From: a virus
Length of the DNA stretch: 21,362 bases
Virus record (IMG/VR): IMGVR_UViG_3300030103_000375
Coordinates: 1-21,362 of that record
Reading direction: 5' to 3' (one strand)
Shown here: in pieces, positions 808 through 21,362 of the stretch
Position numbering within the stretch: position 1 is the first letter of the stretch
Layout: every line of letters begins with the position of its first letter
Notes under the pieces: model-generated
What the model saw: only the letters and a program-made list of their open reading frames with translations
Databases searched by the model: none
What the model was told of the DNA's origin: nothing
Position numbers and translations under genes: made by a program

Positions 808-1762
808 AGATTATTATAAACCGTTTGAATATCCATGGATGTTTGATTACTATGTATTACAGAATCAAATGCATTGGATGCCAGAGTCTGTGCCTTTACA
901 TACAGATGTAAAAGACTGGCAAGAACTTACAGACACAGAAAAGAATTTATTAACACAGATATTTAGATTGTTTACTCAATCGGATGTTGATGTGGCTAGT
1001 GGTTATATAGATAAGTATATGCCTATCTTTAAAAAACCGGAAGCAAGAATGATGATGTCTTCTTTTGCTAACATGGAATCAATCCATCAACATGCTTACA
1101 GTTTACTACTTGATACTGTTGGTATGCCTGAATTAGAATATAAAGCATTTGCTGACTACGAAGAGATGGCAGACAAGCATGACTACGTTGGTAACTTTAA
1201 ACCTAGTAAAGCTAAAAGAGAAACTATAGCAAAGACTCTTGCTGTTTATTCTGCTTTTACAGAAGGACTACAACTCTTCAGTAGCTTTGCAATCCTATTA
1301 AACTTTCCAAGGTTCGGTAGAATGAAAGGCATGGGACAGATAGTTACTTATTCTATTCGTGATGAGTCTATGCACGTTGAAGCTATGACTAAACTATTTA
1401 GAGAGTTTATAAAAGAGAACGTAGATATATGGACAGATGATTTTAAGAAAGAACTTTATGACATCTGTAGAGAGATGGTAACATTAGAAGATAAGTTTTT
1501 AGATTTAGTATTTGAGATGGGTGACATACAAGGACTAACTAAAAAAGATATGTACGCTTACAATAGATACATAGCTGATAGAAGATTACTACAACTTGGT
1601 TTGAAAACTAATTATGACCAAAGAGAGAATCCTTTAGGTTGGTTGGATGAAGTAACTGGTGTCGAACATCAAAACTTTTTTGAAGGACGTGCTACTACTT
1701 ACATGAAAGCTGGACTTAGAGGTAGACAAGATAACATAACATTTGCAGGATTTGAAGAATGA
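788..1762 (+). CDS. nrdB: Ribonucleoside-diphosphate reductase beta subunit (class I, tyrosyl-radical type)
   Basis: This 324-residue protein is the small subunit of class I ribonucleotide reductase, which houses the dinuclear metal site and radical and pairs with NrdA. By comparison with E. coli NrdB the metal ligands can be picked out: D66 (QSDVDVA), E97 and H100 (ESIHQHAY), E159 (FTEGLQLF), E193 and H196 (RDESMHV). Y104, seven residues after E97, sits where E. coli Y122 carries the radical, so this is a tyrosyl-radical enzyme and not a Phe-substituted class Ic type. Length fits phage and bacterial NrdB of 320-375 aa. AGAGGAG at 773-779 serves the ATG at 788. The stop overlaps the cytochrome start by 4 nt (ATGA). 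Confidence 0.95.
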   Translation: MSLLGNRDYYKPFEYPWMFDYYVLQNQMHWMPESVPLHTDVKDWQELTDTEKNLLTQIFRLFTQSDVDVASGYIDKYMPIFKKPEARMMMSSFANMESIHQHAYSLLLDTVGMPELEYKAFADYEEMADKHDYVGNFKPSKAKRETIAKTLAVYSAFTEGLQLFSSFAILLNFPRFGRMKGMGQIVTYSIRDESMHVEAMTKLFREFIKENVDIWTDDFKKELYDICREMVTLEDKFLDLVFEMGDIQGLTKKDMYAYNRYIADRRLLQLGLKTNYDQRENPLGWLDEVTGVEHQNFFEGRATTYMKAGLRGRQDNITFAGFEE

Positions 1763-2202
1763 ATGATATGTTTGGTTATGTAATAGGAATCTTTGGGTTT
1801 CTTTTTGGTATATTAGTTCTTACATATGACAACTTAGAGTATAAAGGTTATTCAAGTGCTCATAGTTGTTCAGGTGATTGTTATATTAAATATGTCGAAG
1901 AACATGGAACATCTGTAGAAATAGAACAAAGAAAAAAAGAAATAGCAAAGGCAGATGAGTTTAGTTCTATAAGAGGCTTATGGTCAGGATGTGCTGCTTG
2001 TCATGGTCAAGACGGTCAAGGTATGGGTGCATTCCCTAAACTTGCAGGGCAAACATCTGATTATATAAGTCAAAGATTATATGCATATAAAAATAGAGAA
2101 CAAATTGGTGCTATGTCATCAACTATGTGGGCACAAGCTGGAATGTTAAGTGACCAAGATATTAAGTTAATAAGTAAATTTATAGAGGAAGGTATAAACT
2201 AA
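1759..2202 (+). CDS. Membrane-anchored c-type cytochrome (class I, c553-like), phage-encoded
   Basis: This 147-residue protein has an N-terminal membrane anchor (about residues 5-23) and a soluble C-terminal cytochrome c domain (about 72-147). The heme-attachment motif CAACH is at residues 78-82, followed by GQDGQGMGAFPKLAGQ, typical of c553-like monoheme cytochromes. The distal methionine ligand is probably M119 or M123 in the stretch before LSDQDIKLISKFI. A second cysteine pair, C37 and C41, lies just after the anchor in a charged linker and is not a heme site. It would act on the periplasmic face as a one-electron carrier and would need the host cytochrome c maturation machinery. Its ATG overlaps the nrdB stop by 4 nt, so it is co-translated with ribonucleotide reductase. 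Its electron partners cannot be told from sequence. Confidence 0.88.
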   Translation: MNDMFGYVIGIFGFLFGILVLTYDNLEYKGYSSAHSCSGDCYIKYVEEHGTSVEIEQRKKEIAKADEFSSIRGLWSGCAACHGQDGQGMGAFPKLAGQTSDYISQRLYAYKNREQIGAMSSTMWAQAGMLSDQDIKLISKFIEEGIN

Positions 2203-2549: not shown

Positions 2550-2963
2550 TTAGCTAGATATACGTATCTTTTTAGGCTTTTCTTCCTCTGGAATGTTCTT
2601 TTCCAGTTCAATCACCAAGATACCATCAACAACTACTGCATCTTTTACTTCAACATACTCTGCTAGAGCAAATGTTTTAGTGAAGTCTTTTTCAGATATA
2701 CCCTTATGGATATATTCTACTCCTTTCTTCTCATCTGTTTGTACAGCAGATACAGTAAGTGTTTTATCTTTAACCTCAACATCAATGTCTTCGACTTTAA
2801 ATCCTGCCATTGCTATTTCGATTCGATATGTCTCACCTGATTTAACTATGTTATAAGGTGGATAGTTTGTTTGAGGTATTGATGCTCTTTGAAGTGTATC
2901 AAAGATTTCATCAAACCCAACTGAGAACGGACTGAATTGTCCAAATGCTTTTAAATGTGTCAT
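2550..2963 (-). CDS. hsp20: Small heat-shock protein of the Hsp20 / alpha-crystallin family (IbpA-like)
   Basis: This 137-residue protein is an ATP-independent holdase chaperone that binds unfolding proteins in the cytoplasm. The alpha-crystallin domain spans about residues 34-122, opening with NYPPYNI and containing YRIEIAMAGF and the closing AVVVDGILVIEL, the usual A-x(n)-GxL signature. The C-terminal extension carries the I-x-I oligomerisation motif (I133-R-I135). Length fits bacterial IbpA-type proteins. Hsp20 genes are known in marine phages, where a role in virion assembly or host proteostasis has been proposed. The start ATG is preceded by AAGGAG. It has its own perfect sigma-70 promoter and a probable RNA thermometer, and no clear terminator separates it from the cyclase gene, so late read-through is also possible. 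Confidence 0.95.
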   Translation of the reverse strand: MTHLKAFGQFSPFSVGFDEIFDTLQRASIPQTNYPPYNIVKSGETYRIEIAMAGFKVEDIDVEVKDKTLTVSAVQTDEKKGVEYIHKGISEKDFTKTFALAEYVEVKDAVVVDGILVIELEKNIPEEEKPKKIRISS

Positions 2964-3021: not shown

Positions 3022-3050
3022 ATTATAGAGTCTTATTTATGTTTTGTCAA
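3022..3050 (-). promoter_or_regulatory. Perfect consensus sigma-70 promoter for hsp20
   Basis: On the minus strand TTGACA (3050-3045) is followed, after exactly 17 bases, by TATAAT (3027-3022). Both hexamers and the spacing match the optimum for the housekeeping sigma factor. Transcription would start near 3015, giving a leader of about 52 nt before the hsp20 ATG. The -35 box lies inside the cyclase coding sequence, where it encodes a Leu-Thr pair near the C terminus. No heat-shock (sigma-32) or extended -10 signature is seen. The promoter lets host RNA polymerase transcribe hsp20 independently of the late operon. Confidence 0.88.
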
Positions 3051-4784
3051 GTCTATTGTAGTATATATTTCTACTGGCTCTGCTATCCCTTTCATTGCTA
3101 TAGGGTCTAGTTTAATTAGAGGTATGTCTGTTTGTTGTGCAGTATTCTTAGCTATAACTATGTCTTCTCCTACAGCCTTACAACTACTCTCACATCGAGC
3201 TGCAAGATTTACATCTGCACCTATAGCAGTATAATCAAACCTATCTTCTGAACCACAGTTACCTAGCATCACGATACCCGAATTGATTCCTATACCAATT
3301 TCAATACCTAAGTCTGCCTCTTGCATCTTTTCTTTTATTTCTATAGCTGTAAGGATTGCTCTATCTTCGTGCATATCAACATCTATAGGTGCGTTAAAGA
3401 TTGCCATCATTGCATCACCTATATATTTATCAACCATACCACCGTACTTCTTAACTGCATTAGCTTGTATGGTTAATGTCTTGTTCATTAACTCTGTCAC
3501 CTGTTCTGGTTCTAATTGTTCTGATAAGTTTGTGAAGCCTCTGACATCAGTAAACAGCATGGTACAATACTTTCTCTCACCACCTAACTTTAACAGTTCA
3601 GGATTATCTTGTAATTGTTTTACTTGCCTTGGGTCTAGGTAATGTTCAAACTGTTTCTTGATTTGTTGTCTTAGTTTGTATTGCTCTCTGAATCTTAGAT
3701 AGAATTGTTGTAATGACAAAAGTGTCATACATGTCATACTCCATGTGACATCAACTAAAAAGCCTCGTGATATTAAATAGTAACCGAGTCCACCCATCGA
3801 CAGTATCAGCGTACTTGCCAATGATGCACCCATAGTAATACCAAAATGATTTATCACGAAGACGATTAAAAATCCTGAAATGCATAATAAAATAAGTTCT
3901 ATAAATAATCTATAATCTGGAATCTGAGGAGAGTCTATTAAAATACTTTCAGCTAAAGCTGCTTGTATCTTGTGAGGTTCTAATAGTCCCTTTGGTGTAG
4001 CTAACTGTGGCATTACACCGGCAGCAGTCACCCCAACAAAAACAAATGTACCTTCGACATCCATCTCTTCCAATGTTGTTTGTTTTGTATCTACCCAACT
4101 AATCCACTTCCTACCTAAACTATCTGTACTAATAGGTGGTAGACCTCTAGCTCTTATCATCTCTATACCATTCTCGTTGGTCTTTATCTGATAAGTGGTA
4201 GCACCGGCTAGAGTCTTTAATACTTCTGTACCAAAAGCAGCAACCCAACCATCAGGTGTTTGCTGTAGTAATGGTAATCTTCTTACAAGATTATCTACAT
4301 CTACTGGAGCAGATACAGCACCTTGCGTAGCTGATTCACTTAAAGGTTTTATATTCTGTAAAAATCCTTTTGCCTTTGGTAAGTCTACGTCTGGTCCAAG
4401 AATAACAGTACCATGAGTTTCTGGGTACATACCATTGTCAAACTCTGGCATAGCTAGTACACTTGATGCATAGCTTAATACATCTGCAAATATTTTATCA
4501 CCACCAAACCTATCATCTTGTGGAAATAATATTACCCAACCAACACCTAGTGCACCTTTGTTGAGTAAGTCAATATGAATACTTGCTAAGTCTTGACGAG
4601 GAAAAGGATAACCACCTTTGAGTTGTACATCTTCCTCTGTAATATTTAAAATAGTAAAATGACCTGAAGGCTCTGGTGTTTGTACTAAAGCATCAAAAGT
4701 TTTTAGTCTTAATACTTCTAATGGTGCAAAATTAAATAATAAAGGTAATGTTAGTAATCCTAGTAGTAAACTTGCGTATTTCAT
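3033..4784 (-). CDS. CHASE2-domain transmembrane class III nucleotide (adenylate/guanylate) cyclase
   Basis: This 583-residue inner-membrane protein should make cAMP (or cGMP) in the cytoplasm in response to an envelope signal. Order: N-terminal TM (about 4-20), extracytoplasmic CHASE2-like sensor (about 25-285), three TM helices (about 291-312, 315-338, 344-362), a linker, and a class III cyclase domain (about 398-560). Metal-binding D413 (LFTDVRGF) and D457 (KYIGDAMM), substrate-binding K453 and transition-state N526 and R530 (NLAAR) are present, so it looks active. The residue that is usually Asp or Thr beside Lys in adenylate cyclases is A523 (YTAIGADVN), so nucleotide choice is not certain. 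ATG 4784 shares one base with the upstream stop (TAATG); an in-frame TTG at 4790 is less likely. CHASE2 cyclases are often neighbours of FecR-domain genes in bacteria, as here. Confidence 0.9.
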   Translation of the reverse strand: MKYASLLLGLLTLPLLFNFAPLEVLRLKTFDALVQTPEPSGHFTILNITEEDVQLKGGYPFPRQDLASIHIDLLNKGALGVGWVILFPQDDRFGGDKIFADVLSYASSVLAMPEFDNGMYPETHGTVILGPDVDLPKAKGFLQNIKPLSESATQGAVSAPVDVDNLVRRLPLLQQTPDGWVAAFGTEVLKTLAGATTYQIKTNENGIEMIRARGLPPISTDSLGRKWISWVDTKQTTLEEMDVEGTFVFVGVTAAGVMPQLATPKGLLEPHKIQAALAESILIDSPQIPDYRLFIELILLCISGFLIVFVINHFGITMGASLASTLILSMGGLGYYLISRGFLVDVTWSMTCMTLLSLQQFYLRFREQYKLRQQIKKQFEHYLDPRQVKQLQDNPELLKLGGERKYCTMLFTDVRGFTNLSEQLEPEQVTELMNKTLTIQANAVKKYGGMVDKYIGDAMMAIFNAPIDVDMHEDRAILTAIEIKEKMQEADLGIEIGIGINSGIVMLGNCGSEDRFDYTAIGADVNLAARCESSCKAVGEDIVIAKNTAQQTDIPLIKLDPIAMKGIAEPVEIYTTIDLTKHK

Positions 4785-5239
4785 TAGCAAGGGACTCTTG
4801 AGCCATCAGCATAGAAGTTTATAGTACAAGAAGAAGTAGTATTAGTTATGTAAATATTTCTTACTACTGCTATACCTAAAGCTGTATTCATAAGAGTATA
4901 GCTATAAGTATTTAAATTTTCTCCAATCAATCCAGCAAATATAATTTTATGAACTACTAATTCTTCTAATGATGGTCTTTTACCTAATATACGATTAGCT
5001 TCTGATATGTTAGGATTTTTTAATCCTTCATAAGTTGTGTAAACATCTAAACCATTTAGTGTCCAATAAATAATTCTTTGCTTTCTCGTTGGAGGTTCTT
5101 TTATTTCTATAAAATTAAAGTTATCTCTAAACTTTTTTTCTAACTCTATAATCTCTTCATCTGGAATAGGTGGTAAAGTTAAATCTAACTCTGCATATAA
5201 TGGACTACATAATAATCCTAGTAATAATAATCTAATCAT
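4784..5239 (-). CDS. 151-aa secreted or membrane protein with a DUF5658-like core, between FecR and cyclase
   Basis: The protein has an N-terminal signal peptide (about residues 1-16, ending LYA) and an acidic proline-containing stretch. Its core resembles DUF5658-type membrane proteins: D65 and T68-T69 (LDVYTTYEG) followed by E80-A-N-R-I-L-G, with K98 nearby. Hydrophobic segments at about 95-106 and 116-132 could be membrane helices. The C-terminal tail carries C138 and the last residue C151, resembling the end of the curlin-like protein. ATG 5239 overlaps the FecR stop by 8 nt, and the stop shares a base with the cyclase ATG, so the three are translationally coupled. No biochemical role is known; linking the periplasmic FecR protein to the cyclase is inference from position. 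Confidence 0.72.
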   Translation of the reverse strand: MIRLLLLGLLCSPLYAELDLTLPPIPDEEIIELEKKFRDNFNFIEIKEPPTRKQRIIYWTLNGLDVYTTYEGLKNPNISEANRILGKRPSLEELVVHKIIFAGLIGENLNTYSYTLMNTALGIAVVRNIYITNTTSSCTINFYADGSRVPC

Positions 5240-6341
5240 TTTGTTTTATTGTTATGGTTGACGAGCTACCACCATTTACTATAATCTGTGTGCTCTTACC
5301 ATTTTGTATTAAGATAACAGTATAAGCATTACTCTTATCTAAATCTACTCTTACTGTATTTTCTAATGCTCTAACAAAAGTTATAGTATTATCTGTAGTA
5401 AAAGTATTTATCTGCGTATCAGGGTCAAACCCTAATGTTGTACCTTTTAAATCTAAATCAGCTTGAAGTAAAGTTTCAGTCTGGTCAAGCTCATTGACAT
5501 CTTGTATAATGTCAAGCAAGTCCTCTAAAAAATTTACGTCAAGGTAATTTATATCTAGCTCTGTAAATTCTAAATCATCATTAGCTAGATAGTCTATATC
5601 AAGGTCATCGAACCCCAGATAATCAACATCAAGTAAGTTATTACTACCACTTGACACACTCTCCTCACTAACATTTATATCCTCCTTTGGTGGATTAACA
5701 ATCAACATATTATCTATTAACTGTAATGTTATATCTAATATTACAGGCTTAGTAGGTTCAGTTTCAAACATAGAAACTGTAGTAGCTTGATAGGGTTGAT
5801 TAAGTATAACCTCACCTATTGCAGTAGCAACAACTATCTCACCACTTGGAGTACCATCATCTTTTGGTAATAGTATAATTAAACTTTCACCAAGTTCATT
5901 TACTGTTACTGTAAAATCTGTACCACGAATTGATACGTTTGCACTAGGAGTACTAATAGCAATGTTCTCTTTATTAATAGTATTTAATTTACCAGTAATA
6001 AATCTTGCTGTCCCACTTGCAAATTGCAAAGCCATCTTAGACTTTGATGGGTCAGGGTCATAGATAAACTCATCTATGAGTAACTGGGAATGTTCTGTTA
6101 ATCTAACCCTAGTATCATTAAGAAATGTTATACCAATCCTACCATTAGTAGTCTCAACATTATCATAACTTTCAATATCAAAAGATAAGGCAGCATCATA
6201 AGGTACATCCCTTACAATCCTGCCTATGCCTTTGAGTTCTGTTACGCTTCCAATACTAGCATCCGACTGCTGTGCCACCGTCATCTTGGATAACACACAC
6301 AGTACCAGAATCACCATTTGAAATAATCTTGAGCCAATCAC
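5232..6341 (-). CDS. Secreted FecR-domain protein with acidic repeats and a curlin-like C-terminal tail
   Basis: The GTG start (6341) gives 369 residues with a signal peptide (about 1-23, ending TVA before QQ). An ATG at 6317 would give a shorter signal lacking the N-terminal Arg. A FecR domain spans about 55-185, with TTNGRIGITFLNDTRVRL and the signature TPSANVSIRGTDFTV. The N-terminal anti-sigma domain of classic FecR is missing, so this is an exported FecR-type protein and probably not a sigma regulator. Residues 237-272 hold four LD[VI][DN][YF]L repeats in a very acidic stretch. The last 30 residues (VILIQNG, TQIIVNGG, STITIKQND) resemble the repeats of the adjacent curlin-like protein. 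The gene overlaps the curlin gene by 86 nt (62 from the ATG). FecR plus CHASE2 cyclase is a recurring bacterial pair. Confidence 0.82.
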   Translation of the reverse strand: MIGSRLFQMVILVLCVLSKMTVAQQSDASIGSVTELKGIGRIVRDVPYDAALSFDIESYDNVETTNGRIGITFLNDTRVRLTEHSQLLIDEFIYDPDPSKSKMALQFASGTARFITGKLNTINKENIAISTPSANVSIRGTDFTVTVNELGESLIILLPKDDGTPSGEIVVATAIGEVILNQPYQATTVSMFETEPTKPVILDITLQLIDNMLIVNPPKEDINVSEESVSSGSNNLLDVDYLGFDDLDIDYLANDDLEFTELDINYLDVNFLEDLLDIIQDVNELDQTETLLQADLDLKGTTLGFDPDTQINTFTTDNTITFVRALENTVRVDLDKSNAYTVILIQNGKSTQIIVNGGSSSTITIKQND

Positions 6342-6969
6342 TTGCTAATGTACTCTTTTGTTGTATATTAAAGGTTCTTGAATCTCCTGTTTGGTCTAAG
6401 TAAAAATAACCATCAGCATATCCATCACCATCATAATCTACAGTATTACTATCTCCATCTATGTCTACATAAGAAATAGCACCATCAACATCTATATCAA
6501 ATGTTAATGTATTACTACTTCCGTTGATAATCCAATCTAAATCTGTGTTACTTGCTAAAGCACTTGTAGCTAGATTTAGTTCAAATGTGTTACTGTCACC
6601 AGTAGCTTGTACATTTAAGTTAGAACCATCAGCACCATAGGTATCAGTAGGGTCAACCTGAATAGTAAATGCATTTGAGTTGCCATCAAAGTTAAAGTAA
6701 CCAACAATATTATCTCCTAGTATATCACCAAGAAATGTATTACTGTCACCTATTTGATTGATGTCAAGAGTCAAAGAAGAACCATCCAAATCTAATGGAT
6801 TAAGACTTCCAGCACTAGATTCCAGCCCACCTATAATGTTGCTTGAACCAAGTTGCTCTAAATCTATATTAGCACTATCACCTGATTGGTCAATATATAT
6901 TTCGTTGTCAGCCCCGTACAATGATGCACTCGACATCAGCACAAGGGTCATCAATTTTAATGTATTCAT
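6256..6969 (-). CDS. Curlin-repeat (CsgA/CsgB-like) secreted beta-solenoid protein
   Basis: The protein has 237 residues with a signal peptide (about 1-19, ending LYG). The mature part is about eight repeats of a curlin-like unit with core Q-x-G-[DS]-S-x-N: QSGDSAN (28-34), QLGSSN (39-44), QIGDSN (72-77), QATGDSN (121-127), QTGDSR (193-198). Degenerate copies lacking Gln include FDGNSN, INGSSN, IDGDSN and SNGDSG. It is rich in D, N, S, G and T and very acidic, fitting an extracellular beta-solenoid. It differs from CsgA in longer, uneven repeats and a C-terminal tail with C225 and terminal C237. With csgG and csgF immediately upstream, it is the obvious export substrate. Whether it forms amyloid fibres is not known. 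The start overlaps csgG by 62 nt and the end overlaps FecR. Confidence 0.8.
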   Translation of the reverse strand: MNTLKLMTLVLMSSASLYGADNEIYIDQSGDSANIDLEQLGSSNIIGGLESSAGSLNPLDLDGSSLTLDINQIGDSNTFLGDILGDNIVGYFNFDGNSNAFTIQVDPTDTYGADGSNLNVQATGDSNTFELNLATSALASNTDLDWIINGSSNTLTFDIDVDGAISYVDIDGDSNTVDYDGDGYADGYFYLDQTGDSRTFNIQQKSTLASDWLKIISNGDSGTVCVIQDDGGTAVGC

Positions 6970-7756
6970 ATTCCCAATACCCTCTTTCTATTCCTATTTC
7001 TATTAAATTAAAAACTGCTGTCTCTACTGCCTTTTGCAAAGCAATAGAGCCAACCTCGTTCTCAGCGATGCCTCCTTCTATTTCTACTAGTTCAGTACCA
7101 GCTTCAATAAACCGGAAGACATCTTGAGATACACTTGTAGATAAAATATTTTTAGACACCGTAGTCTCTAATAATATCTCACCTGTTGACACAGAAACTA
7201 ATCGCAATGATATAGTTACTACGTCTTCTCGGTACTGCTTAGTGTTACCTATTCCTAGATAACGAGCACCAAGACCACCAGATTGAATGTTTGTGTCATA
7301 ACTTATAACTCCACCTTGTACTATAAGACCAGCAAATAGTAAAGGTTGTAGTTTTAAATCTTCGTCAAAACTTTCTCTGGTTGACCGGATTAGTTGTCTT
7401 TCTTTGGTAAGATTATCTAACCCTACCCTTTCGACAACTCTAAAAAATTCACCATTAGCAGCATGTTTTAAAGCTCTGATAAGCAATGCTTCTGGAGCTT
7501 GGGTAACTGCTGTACTAAATAAAGCAAAGCTACTGTTACTCTTTCTTTGCCCTGTTAAGTCTTGAAAACTGTTAGCATATACTGCTATAATTGGTTTAAT
7601 TTTTGCAGGAGGTAAATCAGCTAACTCTTGAGATTGTAACTCTAATACGTTAGCAGGTTCTATATTTTGTGTTAAAACTAAATCTGTATTTTTACTTAAT
7701 ACTGCACAACCACTAAAAGCTGAAATCGCCAATAGGCAACTCAATAATTGTTTCAT
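6908..7756 (-). CDS. csgG: CsgG-like outer-membrane lipoprotein secretion pore (type VIII secretion)
   Basis: CsgG forms the outer-membrane nonameric channel that exports curli subunits. This 282-residue protein (E. coli CsgG is 277) has a lipoprotein signal ending SGC, with C17 the lipidation site. Blocks shared with E. coli CsgG include LFSTAVTQAP, VVERVGLDNL, LIRSTRE, SGGLGARYLGIG, VVTISLRLVSVSTGEIL and ILSTSV-DVFRFIE. The constriction loop differs: aligned from FSTAV, E. coli F56 is kept as F80, but N55 becomes L79 and Y51 is replaced by a small polar residue. A Cys-containing tail (PCADVEC) ends the protein. ATG 7756 is chosen over GTG 7765 because it starts a standard lipoprotein signal. 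It overlaps csgF by 44 nt and the curlin gene by 62 nt. Confidence 0.95.
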   Translation of the reverse strand: MKQLLSCLLAISAFSGCAVLSKNTDLVLTQNIEPANVLELQSQELADLPPAKIKPIIAVYANSFQDLTGQRKSNSSFALFSTAVTQAPEALLIRALKHAANGEFFRVVERVGLDNLTKERQLIRSTRESFDEDLKLQPLLFAGLIVQGGVISYDTNIQSGGLGARYLGIGNTKQYREDVVTISLRLVSVSTGEILLETTVSKNILSTSVSQDVFRFIEAGTELVEIEGGIAENEVGSIALQKAVETAVFNLIEIGIERGYWEYEYIKIDDPCADVECIIVRG

Positions 7757-8159
7757 TCCCGTCACTATCTACAATCCTTAATGTTATAATTCCATCTTCA
7801 ATACTATACTCAATAGTATTACCTTCTAATTCTAATATCCCATTTGTACTTGGAGTCTCACCAAATAAATTTTCTACTAGCTGTCTTGATAGTTGTGCAT
7901 ATATTCTAGACTCTAGGTTTCTTATAAACCTTGCTAATGTAGTGTTCTCTTTATCTCTTTCTATTTGTTCTTGGATAGCTTTTAATTCTTCTTTGATAGT
8001 CATCTTTCTTGAGAACTCTTGGTTTTCTATGGTAAGCCAATGTGCAGAAGTACCTATCCCACTAAAACTGGGATTCTTAAATTGATGTACCATTTCATCA
8101 GCTTTTATATCTGTTACTGCAAATAGTGCTAATAAAAATATACTTACTAATGTTGCCAT
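7713..8159 (-). CDS. csgF: CsgF-like curli assembly factor
   Basis: CsgF binds the CsgG pore with its N-terminal segment and couples secreted curlin to the cell surface. This 148-residue protein (E. coli CsgF is 138) has a signal peptide (about 1-20) and then the diagnostic N-terminal motif HQFKNPSFSG, matching FQFRNPNFGG of E. coli. A helical neck (about 50-100) and a beta-rich C-terminal head (about 108-148) follow, in the family order. ATG 8159 is preferred to an upstream in-frame start at 8180 because AAAGGA lies correctly before it and the signal peptide then starts at Met. csgG follows, overlapping by 44 nt. No csgE, csgC or csgD homologue is visible nearby. Confidence 0.9.
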   Translation of the reverse strand: MATLVSIFLLALFAVTDIKADEMVHQFKNPSFSGIGTSAHWLTIENQEFSRKMTIKEELKAIQEQIERDKENTTLARFIRNLESRIYAQLSRQLVENLFGETPSTNGILELEGNTIEYSIEDGIITLRIVDSDGNETIIELPIGDFSF

Positions 8160-8160
8160 T

Positions 8161-8511
8161 TCAATCCTTTCTTTGGTCATCTCTTTCTGCCTTTGCTATC
8201 TTTTCTATATCAATTAAATTTGGGACACCTAACAAAGTCTTTAACAATACATCTTGTCTAATACTTTGATTGTCCATTGCTCTTACTCTATCAATTAAAC
8301 TTACAATAATACCATATTGACTATCAAGTTTAGTTGACACCCTTTCTTCCATAGTGTCTAATGCAGTCTGCACTTTATCATCTAAGGTATCTAGTTTAGT
8401 TTCCATACCATCAATAATTCTATTGATAAGTTTCCAAACAAAAACACCTAGTCCTAAAGCTGCTGCAATAGGAAAACCTAACTCAGTTATTAGTGATACT
8501 GCCGACTCCAT
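8161..8511 (-). CDS. Single-TM coiled-coil membrane protein, probable lysis-associated
   Basis: This 116-residue protein has one N-terminal membrane helix (about 9-33, GFPIAAALGLGVFVWKLI) and a long heptad-like region (about 36-90, rich in D, E, K, L and M), ending with a charged tail. Its ATG shares a base with the holin stop and its stop lies one base before the csgF ATG. The architecture fits an inner-membrane spanin, a small holin or an antiholin, but no signature decides between them. Placement directly after lysozyme and holin supports a lysis role. It could instead be the first gene of the curli module. No overlapping Rz1-like lipoprotein is present. Confidence 0.65.
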   Translation of the reverse strand: MESAVSLITELGFPIAAALGLGVFVWKLINRIIDGMETKLDTLDDKVQTALDTMEERVSTKLDSQYGIIVSLIDRVRAMDNQSIRQDVLLKTLLGVPNLIDIEKIAKAERDDQRKD

Positions 8512-8981
8512 CAGTCTTGCTTATTAGAAGCTCCAAAGTAAAAACTAATAACAGCACTTGCTAAACCACCAAGATAACCTAACACTAGGTTTATTAGAGC
8601 CTCACTATTTTGCTCTGGTGGTTGTAGTGTTACTAAGAATATATAAGCTAAGAATCCACCTACTGTGGCTACACCCATAATTCTAGCTGTCCAGTCTTTT
8701 GAAAACTTACTTCTAGCATCTTGAGTGTCAGCTACTTCTAACTTGTATACATCCACATCAAGCTCTTTCATCTGTACTTCAAAAGCTTGTTCAGCTTTTT
8801 TAAGTTCTAGCATTTGTTCTGGTGTAGCTTCTGCTATACCCTTCTCTATTGCTTTAGGATTGTTAGGCACACCTAAAACTTCTGCTATCATATTAGCAGC
8901 CATACCACCCATAGGACCACCTAAAGCAGTACCTAGTGTTGGAGCTACAGCACCTACTACGTTTTTTAATAAATTTTTCAT
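8511..8981 (-). CDS. Three-TM holin of the GTA-holin type
   Basis: This 156-residue protein resembles the gene-transfer-agent/phage 3TM holin family, which permeabilises the inner membrane at lysis and releases cytoplasmic endolysin. It has an N-terminal Gly/Ala-rich hydrophobic segment (about 8-37), a charged middle region (about 40-96), then W97-TAR followed by two TM helices (about 100-119 and 129-150) and the ending FYFGASNKQD. The AAGGAT before the ATG is a suitable binding site. The start overlaps the 49-aa gene by 4 nt, and the stop shares a base with the next ATG. The lysozyme gene two genes upstream has no signal peptide, so a holin is required and this is the best candidate. Confidence 0.85.
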   Translation of the reverse strand: MKNLLKNVVGAVAPTLGTALGGPMGGMAANMIAEVLGVPNNPKAIEKGIAEATPEQMLELKKAEQAFEVQMKELDVDVYKLEVADTQDARSKFSKDWTARIMGVATVGGFLAYIFLVTLQPPEQNSEALINLVLGYLGGLASAVISFYFGASNKQD

Positions 8982-20484: not shown

Positions 20485-21362
20485 TTATTCTCCTTTTAAA
20501 TTTGCAATTTCAGCTCGTAATGTTTCAATAGTATCTATTAAATCACTATAGCCGTCCATATCCTCTAGTCCTTTTGGACTATGTGAATCTTTTTTAAGTT
20601 TTTCTATTTGTTCTTGTTGTTCTTGCATTCCTTTAACAAGATGTGTAACAAGTTTACTATAATCCATTGAGTAGTAACCATCTTCGCCTTGATTTACTGC
20701 ATTTGGTACTAGCTTTTCAACTTCTTGTGCTATCAATCCTTCGTCTGCATGGTTATCAGCTTTCCAGTTATAAGCAACTGGGTTAAGATTATTGATTACA
20801 TCTAAACCTCTTGATGCACCTGTAACGTCTTTAAGTCTTGCATCAGATGATGTGTTATAGGTTACAGCATTAGTTGAGCTTTGATTAATAGAGCCAATCT
20901 GTGTACTGTTTCTTCTAAATACATATAATTCAGCTCCAGCAGAAGTACCATCCATATTTTGTTGTATGTTTATACCTGTTGACCCATGTTGAAAAGATAT
21001 ACCACCTACACCTTGATTGGTTGAAGTTCCTAAAAGGACATGTCCTGAAGAAGTAAGACGCATTCTTTCTGCATCAGCAGTAGCAAAGACTAATGTTGCG
21101 TTTGAAGCAACTGCACTATGTGAACCATTAGCACCAGAATATAAACTAAAGGCATTACCTATTTCTAAAAGTTGGTCATTTGCTGTGTTTGTTACTGATA
21201 AATATGATTCACCAGCTGCACGATGTAAATGTAATCCTGAAGTTAAACTTTGAGTTCCGATACCAACTCGTCCTGAATTATCTATACGCATTCTTTCTGT
21301 ATCGTTTGTAGCAAACACTAAAGGTAAGTTGGCTCTATGTTGAATAAAAGCACCTGTGCTAT
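20485..21362 (-). CDS. Tail fibre / spike protein with C-terminal S74 intramolecular chaperone (5' end outside window)
   Basis: The frame runs open through the right edge, so only the C-terminal 292 or so residues are seen. Two repeats of the pattern LVFAT-x-D-x-ERMR followed by SGxVxxGT are typical of trimeric phage fibres with a host-binding role. The C-terminal domain begins at SDARLKD and includes LIAQEVEKLVPNAV and YSMDYSKLVTHLVKG, the S74 peptidase (endosialidase-type) chaperone. The catalytic Ser (codon 20847-20845) and the Lys five residues later are both present, so the domain should trimerise the fibre and then cleave itself off. A coiled coil (EQQEQIEKLKK and a C-terminal helix) ends the protein. 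The GTG at 21318 is internal. Confidence 0.9.
   Translation of the reverse strand, partial: STGAFIQHRANLPLVFATNDTERMRIDNSGRVGIGTQSLTSGLHLHRAAGESYLSVTNTANDQLLEIGNAFSLYSGANGSHSAVASNATLVFATADAERMRLTSSGHVLLGTSTNQGVGGISFQHGSTGINIQQNMDGTSAGAELYVFRRNSTQIGSINQSSTNAVTYNTSSDARLKDVTGASRGLDVINNLNPVAYNWKADNHADEGLIAQEVEKLVPNAVNQGEDGYYSMDYSKLVTHLVKGMQEQQEQIEKLKKDSHSPKGLEDMDGYSDLIDTIETLRAEIANLKGE

Follow-up and report, generated by a model that had tools for sequence, protein, structure and literature searches.

We analyzed a 21.4-kb fragment of viral DNA (IMG/VR virus record IMGVR_UViG_3300030103_000375, positions 1-21,362; hereafter the window) and found a cassette in which homologues of curli export genes are joined to genes for a FecR-domain protein and an adenylate cyclase with a CHASE2 sensor. 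Six open reading frames (ORFs) on the minus strand are arranged in the order csgF-csgG-curlin-FecR-151aa-cyclase. The genes, their order, and their strand were as described in an initial annotation of the window; that annotation ended the cassette at 8159, and the true span is 3033-8180. The overlaps that it listed (44, 62, 86, 8, and 1 nt) were reproduced given the choice of start codons: csgF and csgG overlap by 53 nt from the first GTG and by 44 nt if CsgG begins at Met4, csgG and curlin by 62 nt, curlin and FecR by 86 nt, FecR and the 151-aa gene by 8 nt, and the 151-aa gene and the cyclase by 7 nt from TTG and by 1 nt from ATG at 4784.

The first three genes encode a predicted exporter and its predicted substrate. 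The CsgF homologue (7713..8180; 155 aa) has a signal peptide and matches Pfam CsgF (E 1.5e-18) and PHROG 35372. The CsgG homologue (6908..7765; 285 aa; Pfam CsgG E 1.3e-49) is a predicted outer-membrane export pore with a lipobox-like Cys20 that is invariant across 14 aligned CsgGs, and its profile matches structures of E. coli CsgG at 6.5e-69. Homology of CsgF and CsgG is what the cassette has in common with canonical curli systems. No CsgE gate was recognized by Pfam in the cassette (the window is a fragment, and the host genome was not searched for CsgE). The curlin-repeat protein (6256..6969; 237 aa) was recognized by its repeat ladder and its structural model. The match to Curlin_rpt was below the cut-off (E 0.013), relatives reach 8.6e-6, and a Q-x-G-x-x-N ladder is invariant in the alignment. 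The AlphaFold2 model is a beta-solenoid (pLDDT, the predicted local distance difference test, of 80.8) that resembles the CsgA fibril with Z 10.9, as one among many beta-helices, and a Foldseek search with the model found beta-helix matches only, none of them significant. We predict that this protein is an amyloid-like export substrate.

The FecR protein (5232..6341; 369 aa; Pfam FecR E 2.8e-10) has the predicted fold of a surface-signaling domain and a curlin-like C terminus. Its model (mean pLDDT 71.6) has a signal-peptide-like N-terminal helix, the FecR fold, an acidic, disordered linker (residues about 212-293), and a C-terminal beta domain. The best comparisons were with the surface-signaling domain of PupR (Z 15.7) and with BDI_1681 (Z 14.6), and the first part of the fold matches 5ix9 ('Cell surface anchoring domain'; Z 9.3, 72/76 residues); searching the FecR profile against PDB sequences gave nothing useful. 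The periplasmic FecR fold is shared with FecR anti-sigma systems, but the cytoplasmic anti-sigma part is absent and Pfam shows the FecR domain alone. No sigma-factor or TonB-receptor genes were recognized in the cassette or its immediate neighbors. FecR terminates in a curlin-like strand, TITIKQND. Defined as [IVLT]x[IVL]xQ followed by 1-4 residues, this ending was present in 133 of 134 phage FecRs, in both Caulobacteraceae FecRs described below (L163 and L165), and in L166 and L167. It was present in 0/10 bacterial FecRs that are not associated with curli, with a background of 30/1226 among other ORFs. The curlin proteins of the phages HTVC008M and Melnitz have the same C-terminal ending.

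The last gene encodes a CHASE2 sensor and a class III adenylate cyclase (3033..4790; 585 aa; Pfam CHASE2 1.3e-23, Guanylate_cyc 3.4e-19). The catalytic residues in the window are D415, K455, D459, T521, N528, and R532. D415, K455, D459, and R532 are kept in all 126 full-length phage copies, N528 in 125 of them, and the purine position is Ser or Thr in 125. This set (the metal-binding Asp pair, Lys, Thr/Ser, Asn, and Arg) is what we take to be the CyaC-like adenylate-cyclase pattern, and the predicted product is cyclic AMP (cAMP).

Linkage and co-variation of the cassette genes

The exporter, curlin, FecR, and cyclase genes were linked wherever the locus was long enough to be scored. Viral loci were collected by profile searches that kept the best 80 per seed and are biased to near relatives; the gene order recurs in nearly all of the ~160 loci examined. 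Among CsgG-seeded loci that extend 7.5 kb or more downstream, 35/35 have curlin, FecR, and the cyclase (the cyclase on the same strand in 32 and on the opposite strand in 3), and among cyclase-seeded loci that extend 6 kb or more on both sides, 22/22 have FecR and CsgG. Co-occurrence was essentially total for these core genes and did not extend to the 151-aa gene, which was found as 16 ORFs in 163 sequences. Viral scans with the 151-aa protein and with g116, the small gene next to csgF, used single sequences, as the alignments were too divergent. Separation of the curli and FecR-cyclase halves at unrelated loci and an inactive cyclase had been named as outcomes that would count against the initial annotation; we saw neither, as linkage was full in the scored loci and the catalytic residues are retained.

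The core genes are under purifying selection. The ratio of nonsynonymous to synonymous substitutions (dN/dS, by the Nei-Gojobori method with gene overlaps left uncorrected) was 0.17-0.21 for CsgF (0.21), CsgG, curlin, FecR, and the cyclase, and 0.16 for g116. For the 151-aa gene it was 0.69.

The 151-aa protein (4784..5239) is optional and weakly constrained. It is DUF5658-like (DUF5658 is found in 6/8 of its homologues, best E 7e-6), and its slot is empty in most relatives and occupied by a curlin-like protein in L141, L145, HTVC008M, Melnitz, and L166. The gene is at times elsewhere, before g116 in L023 and between g116 and csgF in L102. That it is rare among relatives and DUF5658-like ruled it out both as a core part and as a second curlin. 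In one contig (L376, 3525-3914), a similar gene directly follows g116 at the contig end, the site of csgF in other relatives.

FecR co-varies with the exporter and with the sensor, and the catalytic domain varies independently of all of them. We correlated amino-acid distances over 57 non-redundant loci. The correlations were 0.86 for FecR and CsgG, 0.85 for FecR and the CHASE2 sensor, 0.76 for CsgG and the sensor, and 0.66 for FecR and curlin. The catalytic domain reached at most 0.20 with anything, its own sensor included, and g116, which adjoins csgF, gave 0.21-0.26 with the other cassette parts. These low values indicate that neighborhood alone does not force a correlation. Domain exchange was also visible in pairwise comparisons: the window and L016 are 78% identical in the sensor and 42% in the catalytic domain, and L016 and L048 are 65% identical in the sensor and 92% in the catalytic domain. 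The Melnitz cyclase has yet another catalytic type, in which the purine position is Asp and Ser replaces Asn528. Selection seems to keep the exporter, FecR, and the sensor as a set while accepting any functional cyclase. The data define a co-inherited unit (CsgF/CsgG-curlin-FecR-CHASE2) and an exchangeable output (the cyclase domain).

Clean replacement of the catalytic domain under a conserved CHASE2 sensor was seen in L016, L020, L022-L024, L028, L031, L033, L034, L038, L042, L048, L078, L079, L125, L132, and L133.

Bacterial counterparts of the cassette

The same five genes are present in bacterial chromosomes. We searched for CsgG in 84,980 bacterial and archaeal genomes and kept the best 80 loci. 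Among these, three chromosomes of metagenome-assembled genomes (MAGs) have csgF-csgG-curlin-FecR-CHASE2 cyclase among cellular genes: Hyphomonas TMED17 (L164; a 705-kb contig) and two Caulobacteraceae MAGs (L163 and L165). The genes are adjacent and overlapping, as in the window, and no g116 or DUF5658 gene was recognized with them. These alphaproteobacterial operons rule out a fusion made by phages, which is how the cassette had first been described. In 74 of the best 80 loci there was neither FecR nor cyclase nearby, and L166, L167, L168, and L184 are apparently phage contigs in bins. The cassette CsgGs form one clade (support 100/99) apart from canonical curli; the bacterial copies are nested among the phage ones, so that transfer may have gone in either direction. 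Among 105 genomes of its family, G001 alone had a CsgF close to the cassette type, and among the 199 genomes of the family of G002 and G003, only those two had it. One of the Caulobacteraceae MAGs has a second csgF copy that is broken by in-frame stops (G002:C1:6517-6836), perhaps from a decayed second cassette. A 1.5-kb 'Salmonella phage' record with a CsgG homologue (OR851715.1) is probably host DNA.

FecR and CHASE2 cyclases are also paired in bacteria apart from curli. Relatives of the cyclase (E <= 1e-80) were present in 119/385 alphaproteobacterial genomes, and in the regions around 20 such cyclases a FecR gene was near 9 and curli genes were near 0, in agreement with the earlier description of FecR and CHASE2 cyclase as a recurring bacterial pair. 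Two of the nine FecR proteins are about 1,400 aa and have cadherin/Ig or Calx-beta/VWA/RTX domains, like adhesin-like exoproteins. By analogy, the bacterial pair may be a general reporter on a surface structure, with curlin supplied in trans in the cassette. The chromosomal versions could be studied in cultivable relatives.

The probable host and the reception of cyclic AMP

The window comes from a marine phage that probably infects SAR11, a highly abundant group of bacteria. The beta subunit of its ribonucleotide reductase (RNR) is 72% identical to that of HTVC115P, and the closest matches to one of its structural proteins are from HTVC103P, HTVC104P, and HTVC115P, followed by HMO-2011. L091, a close relative, has a DNA polymerase that shares 50% identity with those of HTVC103P, HTVC104P, and HTVC115P, three phages that infect SAR11 strain HTCC7211. 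The G+C content is 33.6%. From these comparisons, the window appears to represent a further module-bearing lineage, nearest to HTVC103P and HTVC115P; a more distant HTVC103P-related group has hosts that are not known (PMC8528129).

The host seems, from its gene content, to lack a cAMP system of its own. We searched 247 genomes of the family of one Pelagibacter MAG. The cyclic nucleotide-binding domain PF00027 was present in 14, in most of them within a reading frame of 870 aa unlike CRP, and was missing from the remaining 233 (other receptor types were not searched). Class III cyclases were found in 3/247, two of them on phage contigs (L312 and L313) and the third below the family cut-off, so SAR11-encoded class III cyclases were ruled out for this set; class I cyclases were not searched. 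Among 19 phage records, the search for a cyclic nucleotide receptor gave one sub-threshold PF00027 match only. The output of the cyclase is therefore without a known reader, and neither the proposal that the phage reprograms its host through cAMP nor the one that it times lysis in this way was borne out. A phage bringing cAMP into a lineage with essentially no recognized cAMP machinery is a sharp, testable puzzle.

The two phage contigs are in SAR11 MAG bins (G694 and G729) and have a phage-type cyclase beside FecR or the 151-aa gene, which calls for caution about binning when SAR11 signaling is studied.

Comparison with published modules

The gene content of the module, including FecR and the cyclase, has been published already, and the lineage seems to be new. 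Clusters of csgF and csgG were described in pelagimyophages (Zaragoza-Solas 2020, PMC7029224), and csgF-csgG-csgA/B-FecR-(second csgA/B)-adenylate cyclase was described in HTVC023P-type podophages and T4-like pelagiphages (Wittmers 2022, PMC9599517). This type VIII secretion module is widespread and transcribed in the ocean and was detected at all 65 GOV2.0 stations (PMC9599517). The window shares with it the order of csgF, csgG, and curlin, the linkage to FecR and cyclase, and the small gene before csgF, and differs in having the DUF5658-like protein in the slot of the second curlin. HTVC008M (NC_020484) and Melnitz (MZ577097) have the same gene order as the window, with identities of 46% and 42% for CsgG, 40% and 38% for FecR (annotated merely as 'hypothetical' in HTVC008M), and 34% and 31% for the cyclase. 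Unlike the window, they fill the 151-aa slot with a curlin-like protein (441 or 341 aa) and have two tandem copies of g116 and other catalytic-domain types. What goes beyond the published accounts is the strict linkage, the co-variation of FecR, CsgG, and the sensor together with the catalytic swap, the C-terminal strand of FecR, and the bacterial operons; PMC9599517 places FecR and cyclase outside bacterial type VIII operons, whereas the three MAG operons have both.

The small gene upstream of csgF is better interpreted as a lysis-region gene for a small membrane protein than as a histidine kinase. g116 (8161..8511, minus strand; 116 aa) is directly upstream of csgF and encodes a predicted membrane segment followed by a coil. 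The published module is always preceded by one or two 'histidine kinases' (PMC9599517). Upstream of csgF, most podophage-type loci have a single copy of g116, and T4-like phages have two. Because position and copy number coincide, these 'histidine kinases' are probably g116 (the annotation was compared by description); a kinase was ruled out by the lack of a Pfam kinase match in 19 members. Next to g116 in the window are a gene for a holin-like predicted membrane protein (8511..8981, minus strand; 156 aa; PHROG 1544 E 7.6e-27, function unassigned, and a weak PHROG holin match, E 0.015) and one for a phage lysozyme (9111..9572, minus strand; Pfam Phage_lysozyme E 1.2e-7, PHROG endolysin 6e-17). 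The loci L351, L352, L354, L357, L359, L362, L363, and L382 have no csgF, and in them the holin-like gene and a lysozyme come directly after g116. Curli phages are widespread in the ocean, and our data suggest FecR as the link between the halves of their cassette and probably remove a misannotated 'histidine kinase' from it.

A model for the function of the cassette

We propose that export of the curlin-like protein is sensed through FecR and CHASE2 and reported as cAMP, a model to which we give a probability of roughly 40%. CsgG and CsgF would together make a pore in the outer membrane through which the curlin-like protein is exported. FecR would be exported to the periplasm, where its C-terminal strand may contact curlin, whether nascent, pore-bound, or fibrous, and the FecR domain itself may contact the periplasmic CHASE2 domain. 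The cyclase would then turn 'export or assembly under way' into cAMP inside the infected cell, if the signal runs in that direction. The linkage of the cassette genes, the co-variation of FecR, its C-terminal strand, its surface-signaling fold, the exchange of a catalytic domain whose residues are kept, and the bacterial FecR-CHASE2 pairs all favor this model. If it is correct, the cassette is a virus-encoded secrete-and-sense circuit. Of the secrete-and-sense scheme first put forward, the sensing side is upheld by the co-variation of FecR with CsgG and CHASE2, and the side directed at the host is not, as no receptor was recognized. A narrower version, in which FecR joins the exported amyloid by its C-terminal strand, reports assembly to the cyclase, and cAMP acts, in a host without such a system of its own, as a second messenger private to the phage, is rather doubtful.

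Several results weigh against the export-sensing model. The lack of a cyclic nucleotide-binding domain in most of the host family is one. The C-terminal motif of FecR is five residues long and its 134 copies are mutually related, the Hyphomonas FecR (L164) ends in FILE as the lone bacterial exception, and a comparison of the FecR and curlin profiles gave no similarity, so that the FecR-curlin link is carried by the terminal motif. The co-variation may be partly a product of linkage. In L020, L023, L030, and L083-L087 the cyclase is inverted and on the RNR strand, which argues against obligatory late co-expression, and in L020 and L083-L087 hsp20 separates it from FecR. Finally, Melnitz cultures did not clump (PMC9004378).

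The cassette could instead serve only to make a surface amyloid, with fibers on the infected cell acting in capture of siblings, aggregation, or superinfection exclusion, FecR as a CsgB-like anchor or nucleator, and the cyclase meeting a separate need. We regard this as possible and less probable than export sensing. CsgF, CsgG, and curlin are the complete known minimal set (PMC9599517, PMC7029224), the curlin-like strand and surface-anchoring-like domain of FecR would suit an anchor, and the inverted cyclases show that this gene can leave the operon. On the other hand, no long locus has the cyclase away from the cassette, the cyclase sensor varies together with FecR, and the absence of clumping in Melnitz cultures speaks against this reading as well.

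A role in lysis, in which CsgG and CsgF act, in the manner of a pinholin or secretin, as a gated pore in the outer membrane and help to time lysis, has been proposed for the Melnitz cassette (PMC9004378). The cassette adjoins lysozyme, the holin-like gene, and g116 in the window and in many relatives, and g116 is present in curli-less lysis modules. However, a bare pore needs neither curlin nor FecR, yet both are retained in every case and evolve under purifying selection; HTVC008M and Melnitz have no annotated lysis gene beside the cassette; and CsgG, as an outer-membrane pore, should not serve as an inner-membrane holin. We consider this role unlikely.

It is more unlikely still that the cyclase makes cAMP constitutively for host take-over or anti-defense, with the curli half carried along by linkage. 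Strictly conserved catalysis and free exchange of the catalytic domain would be expected of such an enzyme, but conservation extends to the sensor half, which co-varies with FecR and CsgG, and 233 of the host-family genomes have no cyclic nucleotide-binding domain. Uptake of iron complexes or cofactors through the pore, under iron regulation by FecR as PMC9599517 suggested, fits the FecR domain and the lack of a recognized CsgE gate but is very improbable, as FecR lacks an anti-sigma domain, neither a sigma-factor gene nor a TonB-receptor gene was recognized in the cassette or its immediate neighbors, and curlin and the cyclase are left without explanation.

Genomic context of the cassette

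The cassette is an accessory block in a defined slot. Hsp20 (2550..2963, minus strand; Pfam HSP20 E 1.4e-18) marks the outer boundary and is outside the cassette. A perfect TTGACA-N17-TATAAT (-35/-10) element (3022..3050, minus strand) is located at the cassette's 3' edge, between hsp20 and the cyclase. An identical element is 5' of hsp20 in the cultured SAR11 phage HTVC115P (L392, 5833-5861), where 94 nt separate hsp20 from gp40, a gene for a large protein. The 23 kb of HTVC115P that we examined had neither the cassette nor the lysis genes of the window, with a marginal g116-like match elsewhere only.

Two other genes of the window were noted. A c-type cytochrome gene (1759-2202, plus strand; PF00034 E 5.5e-10), with a CxxCH motif and an N-terminal membrane anchor, overlaps the end of the RNR beta gene by 4 nt and is unusual for a phage. 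A probable tail-fiber end (20485-21360, minus strand) has a Peptidase_S74 intramolecular chaperone domain.

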